Shown here: positions 32,274 through 37,160 of the stretch, piece after piece | Layout of the letters: each line of letters opens with the position of its first letter | Position numbering within the stretch: the stretch's first letter is position 1 | Assembly: GCF_014698235.1 (NCBI RefSeq) | Contig: NZ_JACJSP010000013.1 | Coordinates: 1 to 64,000 of the forward strand | Source: Limnothrix sp. FACHB-406 | GTDB taxonomy: Bacteria; Cyanobacteriota; Cyanobacteriia; CACIAM-69d | Direction of reading: 5' to 3' | DNA length: 64,000 nucleotides | The notes under the pieces: generated by a model | What the model was told of the DNA's origin: nothing | Database searches by the model: none | The model's input: the letters and a program-made list of their open reading frames with translations, nothing else | Made by a program: the position numbers and the translations under genes

Positions 32274-33581
32274 CTACGGGCCACTATCTCCCGCACCAAT
32301 ACCAAGCTTGCGGAGTATTTCCCAAACTGGTAGGAATGATCTAAATGTATGATAAGAGTATTTTGGTATATTATCAGCGTAGTACAAATTATCAAAATTC
32401 ACCAAATAGATATACTCAATATATCTCAAGTATATCTTCCGAAGTAGACCGGTTTCATATATGTCTAGATTGTGCGTAAATACAGAACTAATGACGCTTG
32501 TTTTTACGCCATACCAGTCAGGAAGTGAAATTTCGGATTCTATTTTCTTATGATCTGTTGTTAGAAAGCATCGATCAAATTCACTTTTTACTATTTGAAT
32601 TGCAAGTCCATGAAAGTTATATTCCAATTCTGAAAACCAATATTTTCTTGAATCTTCATCAAGTTGATCGTAAATAGATTGTATTTCTGAAGATCGTCCC
32701 TTAGCAGTCTCACCATAAACGACATCATTATCGCAAGAGTTTCTAAACGAGGCGAAAGGGTTTATGAAAACTGCATATATTACATTGGGGTGAGGGAGAA
32801 TGTCTGCAATTTCTCCCCAATTTTGAGTAGCGTAGACAATCGCATGAAAGCCTTCTGCTTCAAGTCGATGAGATATTGAGCTTGAAATTGTATTTAAAGC
32901 CTTTCTAGAATAATCAGGGATTATTTGTTTATTATCTTTGTCTGTATCTATCCAGCCGCTTAGTTCTTCAAATTCTATGGCAACAGTGTACATTGATCTA
33001 TCGTCGAGTAAATTATTTTCAAACCATTGGTAGTATGATGAATCTGGGTAGTAAACAGTTAGTATTATTTCGCCGTTATCCTGTTCTGATGGAATAAAAG
33101 CAGCAGAAGAGTGGTTATTCCATAACACTTCTTGTACAAAAGCATCTCTGACTGTTCTTGTTTCCATTGGTGCGATCAATATGGTATTTACACCTTGTTC
33201 TGCTAAACCAGGGAATATTGAGTAGAAATGATTTGCATAAGCTAAAAGTTCAGTAAAGGCTTGTCGCTCTGTCTGCTTTGATTTTTTTAGCTCAATAATC
33301 GTTAAGCCTATACATTCAGAATTGCCAAATAAGTCAATTCGTGTGGTTGAGTTGCCTTGCTTTTCTAGTCGTAACTCTTTTGCAGAAAGAATAAGTGACT
33401 CAAGACCATCAATAATCCGGTTGATTTTTTCTTCAACAATTTGTTGAAGCAATATACTTATTGGGGGAAAACCATCTCCATTCCAAACAATTGGATCACG
33501 TCGCCCTTTAATAATTTTGAACAAAGATTCTTTATGTTTTTCATAAATCAGATCCCTCAACTGATTTTCGCTTAATTTCAT
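32274..33581 (-). CDS. PD-(D/E)XK nuclease-like protein of unknown function
   Basis: 435 residues in an AT-rich gene without GCGATCGC sites, preceded by GGAAGG. The N-terminal 125 residues look like a PD-(D/E)XK nuclease core of the RecB kind: helical lead-in with Glu (EEKINRIIDGL), TTRIDLFG with Asp83, IGLTIIELKKSKQ with Glu97 and Lys99, and RQAFTELLAYANHF, which fits the QxxxY helix. The remaining 300 residues are not recognised and contain no ATPase, HTH or membrane segment. Single proteins with this architecture occur in defence-rich islands, but no known system is identified. Composition and position indicate acquisition by transfer. Confidence 0.7.
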   Translation of the reverse strand: MKLSENQLRDLIYEKHKESLFKIIKGRRDPIVWNGDGFPPISILLQQIVEEKINRIIDGLESLILSAKELRLEKQGNSTTRIDLFGNSECIGLTIIELKKSKQTERQAFTELLAYANHFYSIFPGLAEQGVNTILIAPMETRTVRDAFVQEVLWNNHSSAAFIPSEQDNGEIILTVYYPDSSYYQWFENNLLDDRSMYTVAIEFEELSGWIDTDKDNKQIIPDYSRKALNTISSSISHRLEAEGFHAIVYATQNWGEIADILPHPNVIYAVFINPFASFRNSCDNDVVYGETAKGRSSEIQSIYDQLDEDSRKYWFSELEYNFHGLAIQIVKSEFDRCFLTTDHKKIESEISLPDWYGVKTSVISSVFTHNLDIYETGLLRKIYLRYIEYIYLVNFDNLYYADNIPKYSYHTFRSFLPVWEILRKLGIGAGDSGP

Positions 33582-33803: not shown

Positions 33804-34073
33804 CTACTCATCCTGTTTGAGGCTTTCGATAGCTGATACTACGTCCTGGAGAATTTCCCCAAACCCACTTAGTTGCTCATCAAATGCATCACCGTTAGCG
33901 GCGTAGAGTGAGTTTTGTCTCTCCATTTCCAACGCCTTTTTTGCTTGAATGACATCGGAAACAGAGATGTTGAACTCCTTGGCTAGGTGCGTTGCACTCT
34001 CCAAGAATGATCTCAAATCGCCTGAAGAAATGAGACGGTAGTTCCGTGGTTCCTGCTCGAATAATGTGCCCAT
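33804..34073 (-). CDS. Small helical protein of unknown function
   Basis: 89 residues. GAGGAG stands 7 bases before the ATG at 34073, so expression is credible. The N-terminus is soluble; LAKEFNISVSDVIQAKKALE could be a short helix-turn-helix but is too brief to call. The rest is an acidic helix ending AIESLKQDE. It reads in the same direction as the nuclease-like gene 220 bases downstream, from which it is separated by the MITE-like element. Confidence 0.6.
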   Translation of the reverse strand: MGTLFEQEPRNYRLISSGDLRSFLESATHLAKEFNISVSDVIQAKKALEMERQNSLYAANGDAFDEQLSGFGEILQDVVSAIESLKQDE

Positions 34074-34196
34074 AGTAATCTCCTCTATCAATCAGTTTCA
34101 CACTGTCATTTTGGTTAAAGTTTAATACTTAGACTTTAACAACAGGATGACACCCTCATCTTCCGATCGTAGCTTCTGGCATTGTCAGGATCTATC

Positions 34197-34242
34197 AATT
34201 CGGCAAGACGATCGCCCGTGGAACCCAGCCTGCCCGATCGCC
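34197..34242 (-). pseudogene. Copy of the last codons of the M14 peptidase
   Basis: Read on the minus strand it encodes GDRAGWVPRAIVLPN-stop, against GDRAGWVQRAIVLPNS-stop at the true end of the peptidase gene (35466-35516). 41 of 46 bases agree and most differences are synonymous. No upstream part of the peptidase is present here. The antitoxin and EF-G domain IV genes lie between the two copies. Confidence 0.8.
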
Positions 34243-34261
34243 CACCAGAACCAACGCAGTG

Positions 34262-34552
34262 TTAGGCAATGGGCACAACATGGAGACGTAACCCAAGCAC
34301 CTGTAAAACCTTGAGAACCGTAGCAAACTCTGGATTACCTTCGATTGACAAAGCCTTGTAGAGACTTTCACGCCCCAACCCTGTTTCACGGGCAATCTGG
34401 GTCATCCCTTTAGAACGGGCAACATCTCCCAACGCTGCTACGACTAGGCTCGGATCACCCTCTTCAAGAGCAGCTTCCAGATAAGCAGCGATATCTTCCT
34501 TGGTTTCCAGATGATCTGCTGCATCCCAAGAATGAGTTTGAACGATCGCCAT
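34262..34552 (-). CDS. Antitoxin of the HigA-like addiction-module family, without toxin
   Basis: 96 residues with an XRE-type helix-turn-helix: GMTQIARETGLGRESLYKAL, and the family ending FATVLKVLQVLGLRLHVVPI. The N-terminal YLEAALEEGDPSLVVAALGD is diagnostic for the addiction-module antidote group whose toxin is a RelE/HigB-like killer encoded just upstream. Here the upstream 110 bases hold only a REP-like palindrome and no toxin gene, so it is an orphan. GGGAG precedes the ATG. It may regulate its own promoter or protect against an incoming toxin. Confidence 0.85.
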   Translation of the reverse strand: MAIVQTHSWDAADHLETKEDIAAYLEAALEEGDPSLVVAALGDVARSKGMTQIARETGLGRESLYKALSIEGNPEFATVLKVLQVLGLRLHVVPIA

Positions 34553-34638
34553 AGAAACTCCCTATAGGTCGTTTGCTGAATCTAAGGCTGTTTAAATATC
34601 TCTTTCCTGAGTGCGTTGATTTTCTCCTGAAATAAGGA

Positions 34639-34660
34639 TAGGTGGGCAATGCCCACCCTA
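34639..34660. repeat. REP-like palindrome
   Basis: TAGGTGGGCA and TGCCCACCCTA face each other with almost no loop. It lies between the antitoxin gene and the EF-G-like gene and is related to the ends of the element at 33654-33798. Confidence 0.75.
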
Positions 34661-34664
34661 CTGG

Positions 34665-35171
34665 CTAAGTTGGAGAAATAGGGATAATTGCATTCTCTAT
34701 CGGATCGATCAAATATAATGCCTTTTGATACATTAGTTGTTTCATAACATCAACGAACCATTTGCGAGCGCAAATTTCAAAAGCTATAATGCTTGAATCC
34801 ACATCATGGTAAGCACCGTCTACAAGTTCAACTTCTATGTTCATAATAGGATATCTGTCAAAAATTTCTGATTCAATCGCTTCAGATAAGCCTCTTTGAA
34901 TTCCAGGAATACATTCAGAAGGAATTTCAATCCCTAACTCAATTGCTCCAGATAAGCCTCTTTGAATTCCAGGAATATATTCAGAAGGAATTGCTCCTCC
35001 TCTTATACGATCAATAAAAGTAAATCCAGCGCCAGATTGATTTGAACGTAATCTAGCTACTATTTTGGCGTATTGCCTGGCACTACCGCTTGACTTTTGA
35101 TGCGTGAACTCATGTTCCACATCTACATCATCGGCAATTTGTACGTAATAAGCCACATCTATTTCGCTCAT
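34665..35171 (-). CDS. Stand-alone elongation factor G domain IV-like protein
   Basis: 168 residues that match EF-G domain IV and nothing else of EF-G: VDVEHEFTHQKSSGSARQYA (loop at the start of the domain), GFTFIDRIRGGAIPSEYIPG, IMNIEVELVDGAYHDVDSSI and AFEICARKWFVDVMKQ. The tip histidine of the YHDVDSS loop is kept. There is no GTPase domain, so it cannot be a translocase on its own. Residues IPSEYIPGIQRGLSGAIELG are repeated as IPSECIPGIQRGLSEAIESE, a duplicated helix. AGGAAG precedes the ATG. Similar short proteins exist in cyanobacteria as far as I recall; function unknown, binding to ribosomes or tRNA mimicry is a guess. Confidence 0.82.
   Translation of the reverse strand: MSEIDVAYYVQIADDVDVEHEFTHQKSSGSARQYAKIVARLRSNQSGAGFTFIDRIRGGAIPSEYIPGIQRGLSGAIELGIEIPSECIPGIQRGLSEAIESEIFDRYPIMNIEVELVDGAYHDVDSSIIAFEICARKWFVDVMKQLMYQKALYLIDPIENAIIPISPT
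34884..34992 (-). repeat. 66-base in-frame duplication inside the EF-G-like gene
   Basis: Two near-identical 43-base blocks begin at 34884 and 34950, period 66 bases or 22 codons. They differ by one base in the part compared (Cys/Tyr codon). The duplication adds one extra helix to the domain. Confidence 0.88.
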
Positions 35172-35465
35172 ATATTTCTTCCTCAGGAGCGTTTTTGCAA
35201 ATAAGGCGGAATGTCAAGGGTGCGCTGAACTTTAATCTGTAGCGTGACTCATAAACTGGTCAACTTTTTTGCGTCGGCTCCAACGTTCTTGTTATTTCAA
35301 CAGAGTCCCCCAAGATATGGGCGTGCCAGAAGCCTGAGCTTATCCATCACTATATTGCCGCCTCTAGCAACTCATGTCCTCAATCACGGTGGTCGAAGCG
35401 ATCGCAACTCCTCAAATAACCCTGTCTAGCTGTTAGCCTGTCGTGGTTTCTGAGATTGTAAAAAT
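35172..35465. other. Intergenic end of the island behind the M14 peptidase
   Basis: 294 bases between the start of the EF-G-like gene and the stop of the peptidase. It should contain the promoter of the island genes. No gene, terminator with T run, or tRNA is seen. Confidence 0.35.
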
Positions 35466-37160
35466 TTACGAATTTGGCAAGACGATCGCCCGTTGTACCC
35501 AACCAGCCCGATCGCCCCGGGCCGTGAGATCCACCACCATTCCTGGTTCGCCACGCACCAGCCAAACCACCCGCGATCGATCGTCCGTCGGATCCATGTG
35601 GTCGTAATAGGGCGTAGTCGGTTGGTGCGATCGCCCCGCCAGATGACCCAAACTCACTTCCGGTTGACCGCTGATCAGCTCCGCACCCGGCGGTAGGGCG
35701 ATCGCCGCGCGACAGGGTTGCACCGCCCCCTTTTCGATCGCCTTTTGCGTGCCATTGGTCGGCAGCCAGCCCGTGTTTTGCACCACCCACTCCACTTGGA
35801 ACAGCCGATCGCCCAAGGATTGCGCCGTGGCCTTCACCGGTTCCAGGCGCGGCGAAATCAGCAATTGCCACAGCAGCCAGCGGGGAAACCGTTCGATTTC
35901 TCGTTCCAACAGGTGAGCCGGTGGGTTGCGCCAGGTGCAAATTTGGTTCCAGCCGCCCAGTTCCACCTTGCCCAGTTGCGGATGCTCCCAGGCGTACCAA
36001 TCCACATAGCCGCGCCCGTCCAGCACCTCATCGTTCCACTTCAGCAGCGCCAAATCTTCCTCGATCGGGTGGTCGTCCAGCCATTCCAGCAGTTTCGGCG
36101 TTTTCACCCCCGCCGCTTGGGGCAAGTTCCACAGCTCCACCGTCCAGGCAAATAGCCCCCGCTCCTCATAGCACCAATCGTCAAAGGCTCCGGTCATCAC
36201 GTTTTTCGGATGGTCGCAGTAGCCCTCAAACACGCTGGTGGCGGGGTAGTCCGTCAGTTCCGTGCCCTTTTGCCCGATCGCCCGGTAATTCAGCCAATCC
36301 GCTTGGGGCAATTCCATATCGGTGGCGTGGCTGTAGGGACGCAACAGCAGGCCGCCAAAGGTGTGAAAGGCCACGGCGGCGTTCAGGTTGGGGTGATGGG
36401 CAATGAAGTCCGCGATCGCCCGCGTTTCCGGCTCCGAGGTGGGATAGTTGCCTGCGCCGGTCTGTTCCGGTTCCGGTCGCCACTGCATCGGGAAATTGCG
36501 GTTTAGATCCAACCCTTCGATCGGGCGTGGCGTGGTGATCGTCGCGCCGTCGTAGCGATCAATCCGGCCCTCCGGCAGCAGTCGATAGTAAGTGCCGCCG
36601 GTTTCGATCGGGTCGCGCCGCACCAGCAACCGGGGATCGCGATCGGACACTTTCCAGGCCCCATTCGGATCGGGCACACGCATCCAAAGGATCCGCCCGT
36701 CCCCATCGATATCTTCCATTTGCAGTTCGCTGGGGCCGCCCGCCAACCGATCGCCCGGATAGGGTCGAGTGCTCGATCGCACAAATTTGGGGCGATCGGC
36801 CAGGGCCAGCTCGGCTCCGTCGGGATTCACGCGAGGGCAAATATAAAACGTCCGCGAATCCAGACAGCGGGTAACGTCCGGATCGCTGCCGTAGTGCTTT
36901 GTCAAAAAGTCGAGGAGATAGAGGCAGGCCGTGGAAGGCGCAAGTTCCGTGGCGTGGATATTGCCATCCACCCAGAGGGCTGGCTTGTGGCGATCGGGCC
37001 CCGTCTCGCTATTGGTGATGGTTAGTAACCAAATATCCCGGCCCTCGTAGCTGCGGCCAATCGATGCCAATTGGACAAGCTGCGGAAATGCGGCCGCGTA
37101 GCTCTGCAAAATCTCCGACAGTTCCGCATAGCGGTAGAGACGATCAAAAGAAACCTGACC
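35466..37160 (-). CDS. M14-family zinc carboxypeptidase
   Basis: About 564 residues. Zinc ligands are visible as GNIHATELAPST (His and Glu of HxxE) and, 180 residues later, AAVAFHTFGG (third His). The catalytic Glu is in LFAWTVELWNLP. Between them lie the substrate-binding Arg/Asn block PIEGLDLNRNFPMQW and CPRVNPDGAE. The C-terminal 150 residues form an extra beta-rich domain (LFQVEWVVQNTGWLPTN). No signal peptide is evident. The ATG at 37160 begins MGQVSFDRLYRYAELSEI; an ATG at 37205 is possible. Its final codons are duplicated at 34197-34242. Confidence 0.92.
   Translation of the reverse strand, partial: GQVSFDRLYRYAELSEILQSYAAAFPQLVQLASIGRSYEGRDIWLLTITNSETGPDRHKPALWVDGNIHATELAPSTACLYLLDFLTKHYGSDPDVTRCLDSRTFYICPRVNPDGAELALADRPKFVRSSTRPYPGDRLAGGPSELQMEDIDGDGRILWMRVPDPNGAWKVSDRDPRLLVRRDPIETGGTYYRLLPEGRIDRYDGATITTPRPIEGLDLNRNFPMQWRPEPEQTGAGNYPTSEPETRAIADFIAHHPNLNAAVAFHTFGGLLLRPYSHATDMELPQADWLNYRAIGQKGTELTDYPATSVFEGYCDHPKNVMTGAFDDWCYEERGLFAWTVELWNLPQAAGVKTPKLLEWLDDHPIEEDLALLKWNDEVLDGRGYVDWYAWEHPQLGKVELGGWNQICTWRNPPAHLLEREIERFPRWLLWQLLISPRLEPVKATAQSLGDRLFQVEWVVQNTGWLPTNGTQKAIEKGAVQPCRAAIALPPGAELISGQPEVSLGHLAGRSHQPTTPYYDHMDPTDDRSRVVWLVRGEPGMVVDLTARGDRAGWVQRAIVLPNS

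Follow-up and report, generated by a model that had tools for sequence, protein, structure and literature searches.

EF-G contacts the ribosome at several places. Its GTPase domain binds at the sarcin-ricin loop, domains II and III at the 30S and domain V at the L11 stalk, and domain IV extends its loops to the decoding centre and to helix 34; in the E. coli factor, loop 1 (aa 507-514) touches the decoding centre and codon-anticodon, while loop 2 corresponds to aa 582-588 (PMC8668904). EF-G variants deprived of domain IV still bind to ribosomes (PMC4861600). For the EF-G II and EF-G-like paralogues, lateral transfer between cyanobacteria and alphaproteobacteria has been described (PMC3150367). 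On a stand-alone EF-G domain IV, no report was found in the open-access literature. From a 64,000-nt stretch of the Limnothrix sp. FACHB-406 genome (here called the window), a real and unusual frame for precisely such a lone domain IV can be deduced on the minus strand at 34665-35171, where the plus strand is full of stops. The frame, in the following termed the EFG_IV frame, encodes 168 aa, and the same genome additionally possesses two full EF-Gs of 697 aa. Its features and those of the adjoining sequence are as follows.

34262..34552, minus strand: orphan antitoxin of the TIGR02684 / PF21716 family (dN 0.023 and dS 0.355 versus congener)
34563..34640, minus strand: 3' remnant of a toxin gene, 78% identical to the congener, with in-frame stop
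34641..34661, minus strand: palindromic repeat GTAGGGTGGGCATTGCCCACC, just 3' of the EFG_IV stop codon (genome-wide repeat; terminator scan)
34641..35401, no strand assigned: stretch that both congeners lack at the syntenic position, comprising the repeat, the EFG_IV frame and about 230 nt of non-coding sequence
34665..35171, minus strand: ORF for EF-G domain IV only, running on into the first strand of domain V (Pfam EFG_IV; fold match to 2xex)
34791..34811, minus strand: tip loop 2, with the same YHDVDSS as in canonical EF-G (invariant columns H122, V124, D125, S126 and S127)
34863..34926, minus strand: C-terminal copy of the duplication, IPSECIPGIQRGLSEAIESEIF, with Tyr changed to Cys and Gly to Glu
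34929..34992, minus strand: N-terminal copy of the duplication, IPSEYIPGIQRGLSGAIELGIE, with the EF-G-conserved Tyr and Gly kept
35073..35096, minus strand: tip loop 1, reading KSSGSARQ where EF-G has KQSGGxGQ, with three conserved residues replaced
35179..35185, minus strand: ribosome-site-like stretch TGAGGAA, shortly 5' of the ATG

The assignment made in an earlier note on this DNA, a separate EF-G domain IV with intact YHDVDSS motif, is corroborated by the match to Pfam EFG_IV (PF03764; E 2.4e-28, 98.8 bits at a cut-off of 24), which falls into two stretches because a tandem duplication splits the domain. As a full-length EF-G, on the other hand, the frame does not qualify, reaching 102.7 bits versus the cut-off of 659.4 of the TIGR00484 (Elongation factor G) equivalog. 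In line with the earlier note, neither GTPase nor II, III and V domains, nor flanking relics of other EF-G domains, were detected in any frame of positions 34000-36000 when searching with an EF-G profile of 701 positions, built from 104 full EF-Gs, and by tblastn with 13 full EF-Gs; just the first beta-strand of domain V remains at the C-terminus (LYLIDPIENAIIPISPT versus LLEPIMKVEVVTPE). A strong ribosome site had also been claimed. Upstream of the frame (CTCCTGAGGAAGAAATAT-ATG), a plausible, ribosome-site-like GAGGA stretch is positioned 8 nt from the ATG. A promoter scan did not find a sigma-70-like promoter on the minus strand for this frame, Rfam gave no match at the locus and PHROGs nothing relevant.

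The 66-base in-frame duplication proposed previously was likewise recovered. Its two copies, 34929-34992 and 34863-34926, are 89% identical, encode 22 aa each and differ by 3 synonymous and 4 replacement changes, numbers so small that the resulting dN/dS of 0.39 has to be read accordingly. An AlphaFold2 model of the 168-aa protein, run with an EF-G domain IV alignment supplied, shows a mean pLDDT of 80 and a pTM of 0.76 and, in structural comparisons that included Foldseek, aligns with EF-G domain IV (2xex; Z 17.8, rmsd of 1.9 over 132 residues). Hence, the predicted fold is that of EF-G domain IV, as the earlier note would have it, in an agreement which depends on the sequence match and is not independent of it because the supplied alignment was EF-G. 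The duplication region is weak in this model (pLDDT 55-72), with short helices only at residues 81-110 or so, around the second copy. No significant match to the model was obtained from a viral fold library.

Relatives were searched for in partly overlapping draws comprising 116 relatives, 386 genomes of the phylum, 388 of the class, 398 of Pseudomonadota and 385 of Alphaproteobacteria. Among the relatives listed from each genome draw, full-length or otherwise long EF-G frames rank highest, with at most about 48% identity and an alphaproteobacterial EF-G as top match (about 48%). No stand-alone EFG_IV relative was seen in the cyanobacterial and Pseudomonadota draws, in the plasmid, phage and viral contig collections or among the matches listed for genome contigs; the larger draws list matches under a strict E-value only and might thus overlook a distant stand-alone version. 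The 91 frames matched in the genome and viral loci that were fetched all have at least 600 aa, and the best 80 matches listed from the genome contig scan are long frames throughout. Long EF-G frames were also found, where checked, in the plasmid, phage and viral contig collections, the latter scanned with both the single protein and an alignment as queries; the fetched plasmid and phage examples are EF-Gs of 665-773 aa, one of them cut by the record end. A single matched frame of 66 aa belongs to a mycoplasmal record with a broken EF-G reading. Besides, four viral contigs (L041, L043, L190 and L191; 296-359 kb) bear full-length EF-G genes that group together. The EFG_IV frame is moreover absent from both congeners, and its membership in an established stand-alone family finds no backing in these draws and collections.

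With regard to origin, the frame has a GC content of 37% in a window of 55% GC. By codon position it shows 50/37/24%, as expected for AT-rich coding DNA, versus 65/47/71% in the adjoining M14 peptidase gene. Its nearest relatives among EF-Gs are of the alphaproteobacterial HKKQSGGxGQ type, and in a tree of domain IV alone the frame is placed beside alphaproteobacterial EF-G, where its branch, at 2.6-3.25 changes per site, is far longer than those of the full-length EF-Gs in the set. The tree does not reject a placement with the cyanobacterial EF-Gs either (AU p 0.50 and 0.45), so that the donor may have been of either kind. Among 46 positions at least 93% conserved across 104 EF-Gs, 18 are changed in the frame, three of these in loop 1. 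The lack of stand-alone relatives in the searched collections, absence in the congeners, low GC, the 18 changed positions, the long branch, the weak model at the duplication and the missing anchor domains all argue for a fragment of EF-G that is truncated, diverged, foreign in composition and without established function, a reading that we regard as the best explanation and as somewhat better than an even bet. It comes close to what the earlier note had set against its own proposal, namely truncated relics of EF-G paralogues, but deviates from it in one respect, an unbroken frame with replacements that look filtered by selection.

Against the fragment reading, the intact frame, the conservative replacements, the dN/dS between the duplicate copies and a low chance of survival favour selection on the protein. 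Conservative replacements account for 34-51% in comparisons of the frame with EF-Gs and for 32-43% between intact EF-Gs, whereas a neutral simulation gave a mean of 24% and a 97.5th percentile of 34%, a value that the frame mostly exceeds. Neutral runs stayed free of stops in only about 5% of cases. Depending on the assumed indel rate, survival of the open frame by chance amounts to about 5-30% since the duplication and, if EFG_IV arrival was simultaneous with toxin loss, to about 0.1-10% since that loss. A freely decaying pseudogene fragment, left open by chance, would be in line with the foreign composition, the truncation, the lost conserved residues and the four replacements within the duplication; it is nevertheless considered quite improbable, as neutral simulations yield stops and fewer conservative replacements. 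The replacements thus look selection-filtered rather than neutral, although part or all of this pattern may date from the full-length parent, and the data do not separate selection before truncation from selection on the lone domain.

The main rival of the fragment reading assumes a retained small protein, i.e., a free domain IV in the decoding site acting as weak competitor of tRNA or EF-G and modulating translation under some condition. The intact 168-codon frame with codon periodicity and ribosome-site-like stretch, the conservative replacement pattern and the predicted fold are in accordance with such a role, as are the intact loop 2 and the retention of both conserved residues, Tyr and Gly, by the first duplicate copy. 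However, all anchoring domains are missing, three conserved loop 1 residues are lost and neither stand-alone relatives nor a promoter-like site were found; hence, this alternative is a possible but rather unlikely one.

The genomic context was compared with two congeners, whose M14 peptidase genes share 90-93% identity with that of the window. In the first, other genes are found beside the peptidase and homology ends at window position 35402; the syntenic site of congener G001 (L038 4467-6800) harbors an apparent DNA methylase gene split in two frames. In the second, an intact toxin-like gene (L039 9685-9993) is located between peptidase and antitoxin, directly upstream of the latter. Of this toxin gene, solely the last 78 nt are left in the window, with 22% of sites differing from the congener, and a further toxin copy was not found in the same genome. 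The order in the window is antitoxin, toxin remnant, palindromic repeat and EFG_IV frame, with the EFG_IV stop codon at the repeat edge. The repeat GTAGGGTGGGCANTGCCCACC is present at 34641-34661 and 46 other genome sites (47 matches when two mismatches are allowed, none in the control) and also in related cyanobacteria; the copy at 34641..34661 could in addition be a terminator hairpin.

An orphan antitoxin as neighbour, as pointed out in the earlier note, is thus confirmed (TIGR02684), and an intact cognate toxin to complete a pair with it is lacking. Since the congener has the toxin upstream and the window just a 3' remnant, the sequence comparison indicates that the antitoxin was orphaned through loss of its own toxin. 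With its neighbourhood explained in this way, adjacency of EFG_IV frame and antitoxin is probably accidental. A replacement toxin, with the domain taking the toxin's place before the antitoxin and so creating a new toxin-antitoxin pair, would agree with the position of the EFG_IV frame at the congener's toxin site, in the same orientation and upstream of an intact antitoxin with a dN/dS of 0.065 versus the congener. Yet this conservation about equals that of the adjoining peptidase (0.055) and may predate the replacement, much antitoxin divergence being possibly older than toxin loss; moreover, the hairpin-forming repeat and the toxin remnant lie between EFG_IV and antitoxin, and co-occurrence elsewhere was not found. 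This scenario is therefore deemed very unlikely, and scarcely more credit is given to its combination with the decoding-site role, i.e., a free domain IV both kept by selection as a small binder and having taken the toxin's place. As a separate observation, the conserved antitoxin, its toxin being a remnant, maybe protects against toxins of other elements.

The nuclease-like gene also noted as neighbour could be retrieved, albeit weakly. It is an AT-rich gene of 435 aa (window 32274-33581) with a weak HSDR_N-like and a NucS-like stretch, the former scoring 16.9 bits and thus below cut-off, and possibly encodes a PD-(D/E)XK nuclease; a 95-aa frame at 33804-34091 is without family match. The variable locus with this gene is all that speaks for a protein serving as decoy for, or giving immunity to, agents that target EF-G or the ribosome, and with no defence-system match, recurring neighbourhood or stand-alone family such a function is highly improbable. 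Direct support was obtained neither for a toxin role nor for the decoy and immunity roles suggested in the earlier note; among the PADLOC anti-phage defence profiles, none matched the EFG_IV frame with an E-value of 1 or below.

Returning to the fragment reading, the parent would have been the EF-G gene of an AT-rich source, and the fragment, which resembles alphaproteobacterial EF-G most, was presumably acquired horizontally, truncated from full EF-G to domain IV and evolving fast. The fragment might have entered the variable locus downstream of the M14 peptidase gene and come to stand at the former toxin site of a toxin-antitoxin pair. With its intact ORF and ribosome-site-like stretch, the frame is translatable, and the product would adopt the domain IV fold, extended by one additional helix of poor order. 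Free domain IV is expected to bind weakly because domains I, II/III and V anchor EF-G, and would touch the decoding site with probably little effect. As a fragment, the frame illustrates how, at a variable locus, an antitoxin can lose its toxin partner and an unrelated reading frame can come to occupy the vacant place. If functional, it would mean that the decoding-site-probing part of EF-G is able to act on its own, and domain IV's own share in A-site occupancy and translocation would become directly testable.

Compared to known systems, the 168-aa frame shares with domain IV of EF-G I the sequence (up to about 48%, alphaproteobacterial EF-G), the predicted fold and the loop 2 motif, but is devoid of the GTPase, II, III and V domains and differs by a 4-aa C-terminal insertion, the 22-aa helix duplication and the altered loop 1. 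The EF-G II and EF-G-like paralogues are likewise diverged EF-G copies (PMC3150367); these, however, are treated as multi-domain EF-Gs, and a second EF-G of 697 aa is encoded separately in the genome to which the window belongs. Domain IV is also present in ribosomal protection proteins, with weak similarity to the frame (TetQ, E 0.005), but TetQ-type proteins are full-length GTPases, whereas the frame consists of domain IV without the other domains. From TIGR02684-type addiction modules (HI1419/HI1420-like), finally, the window retains the antitoxin and a toxin remnant, while the toxin itself is destroyed and the EFG_IV frame stands in its place.
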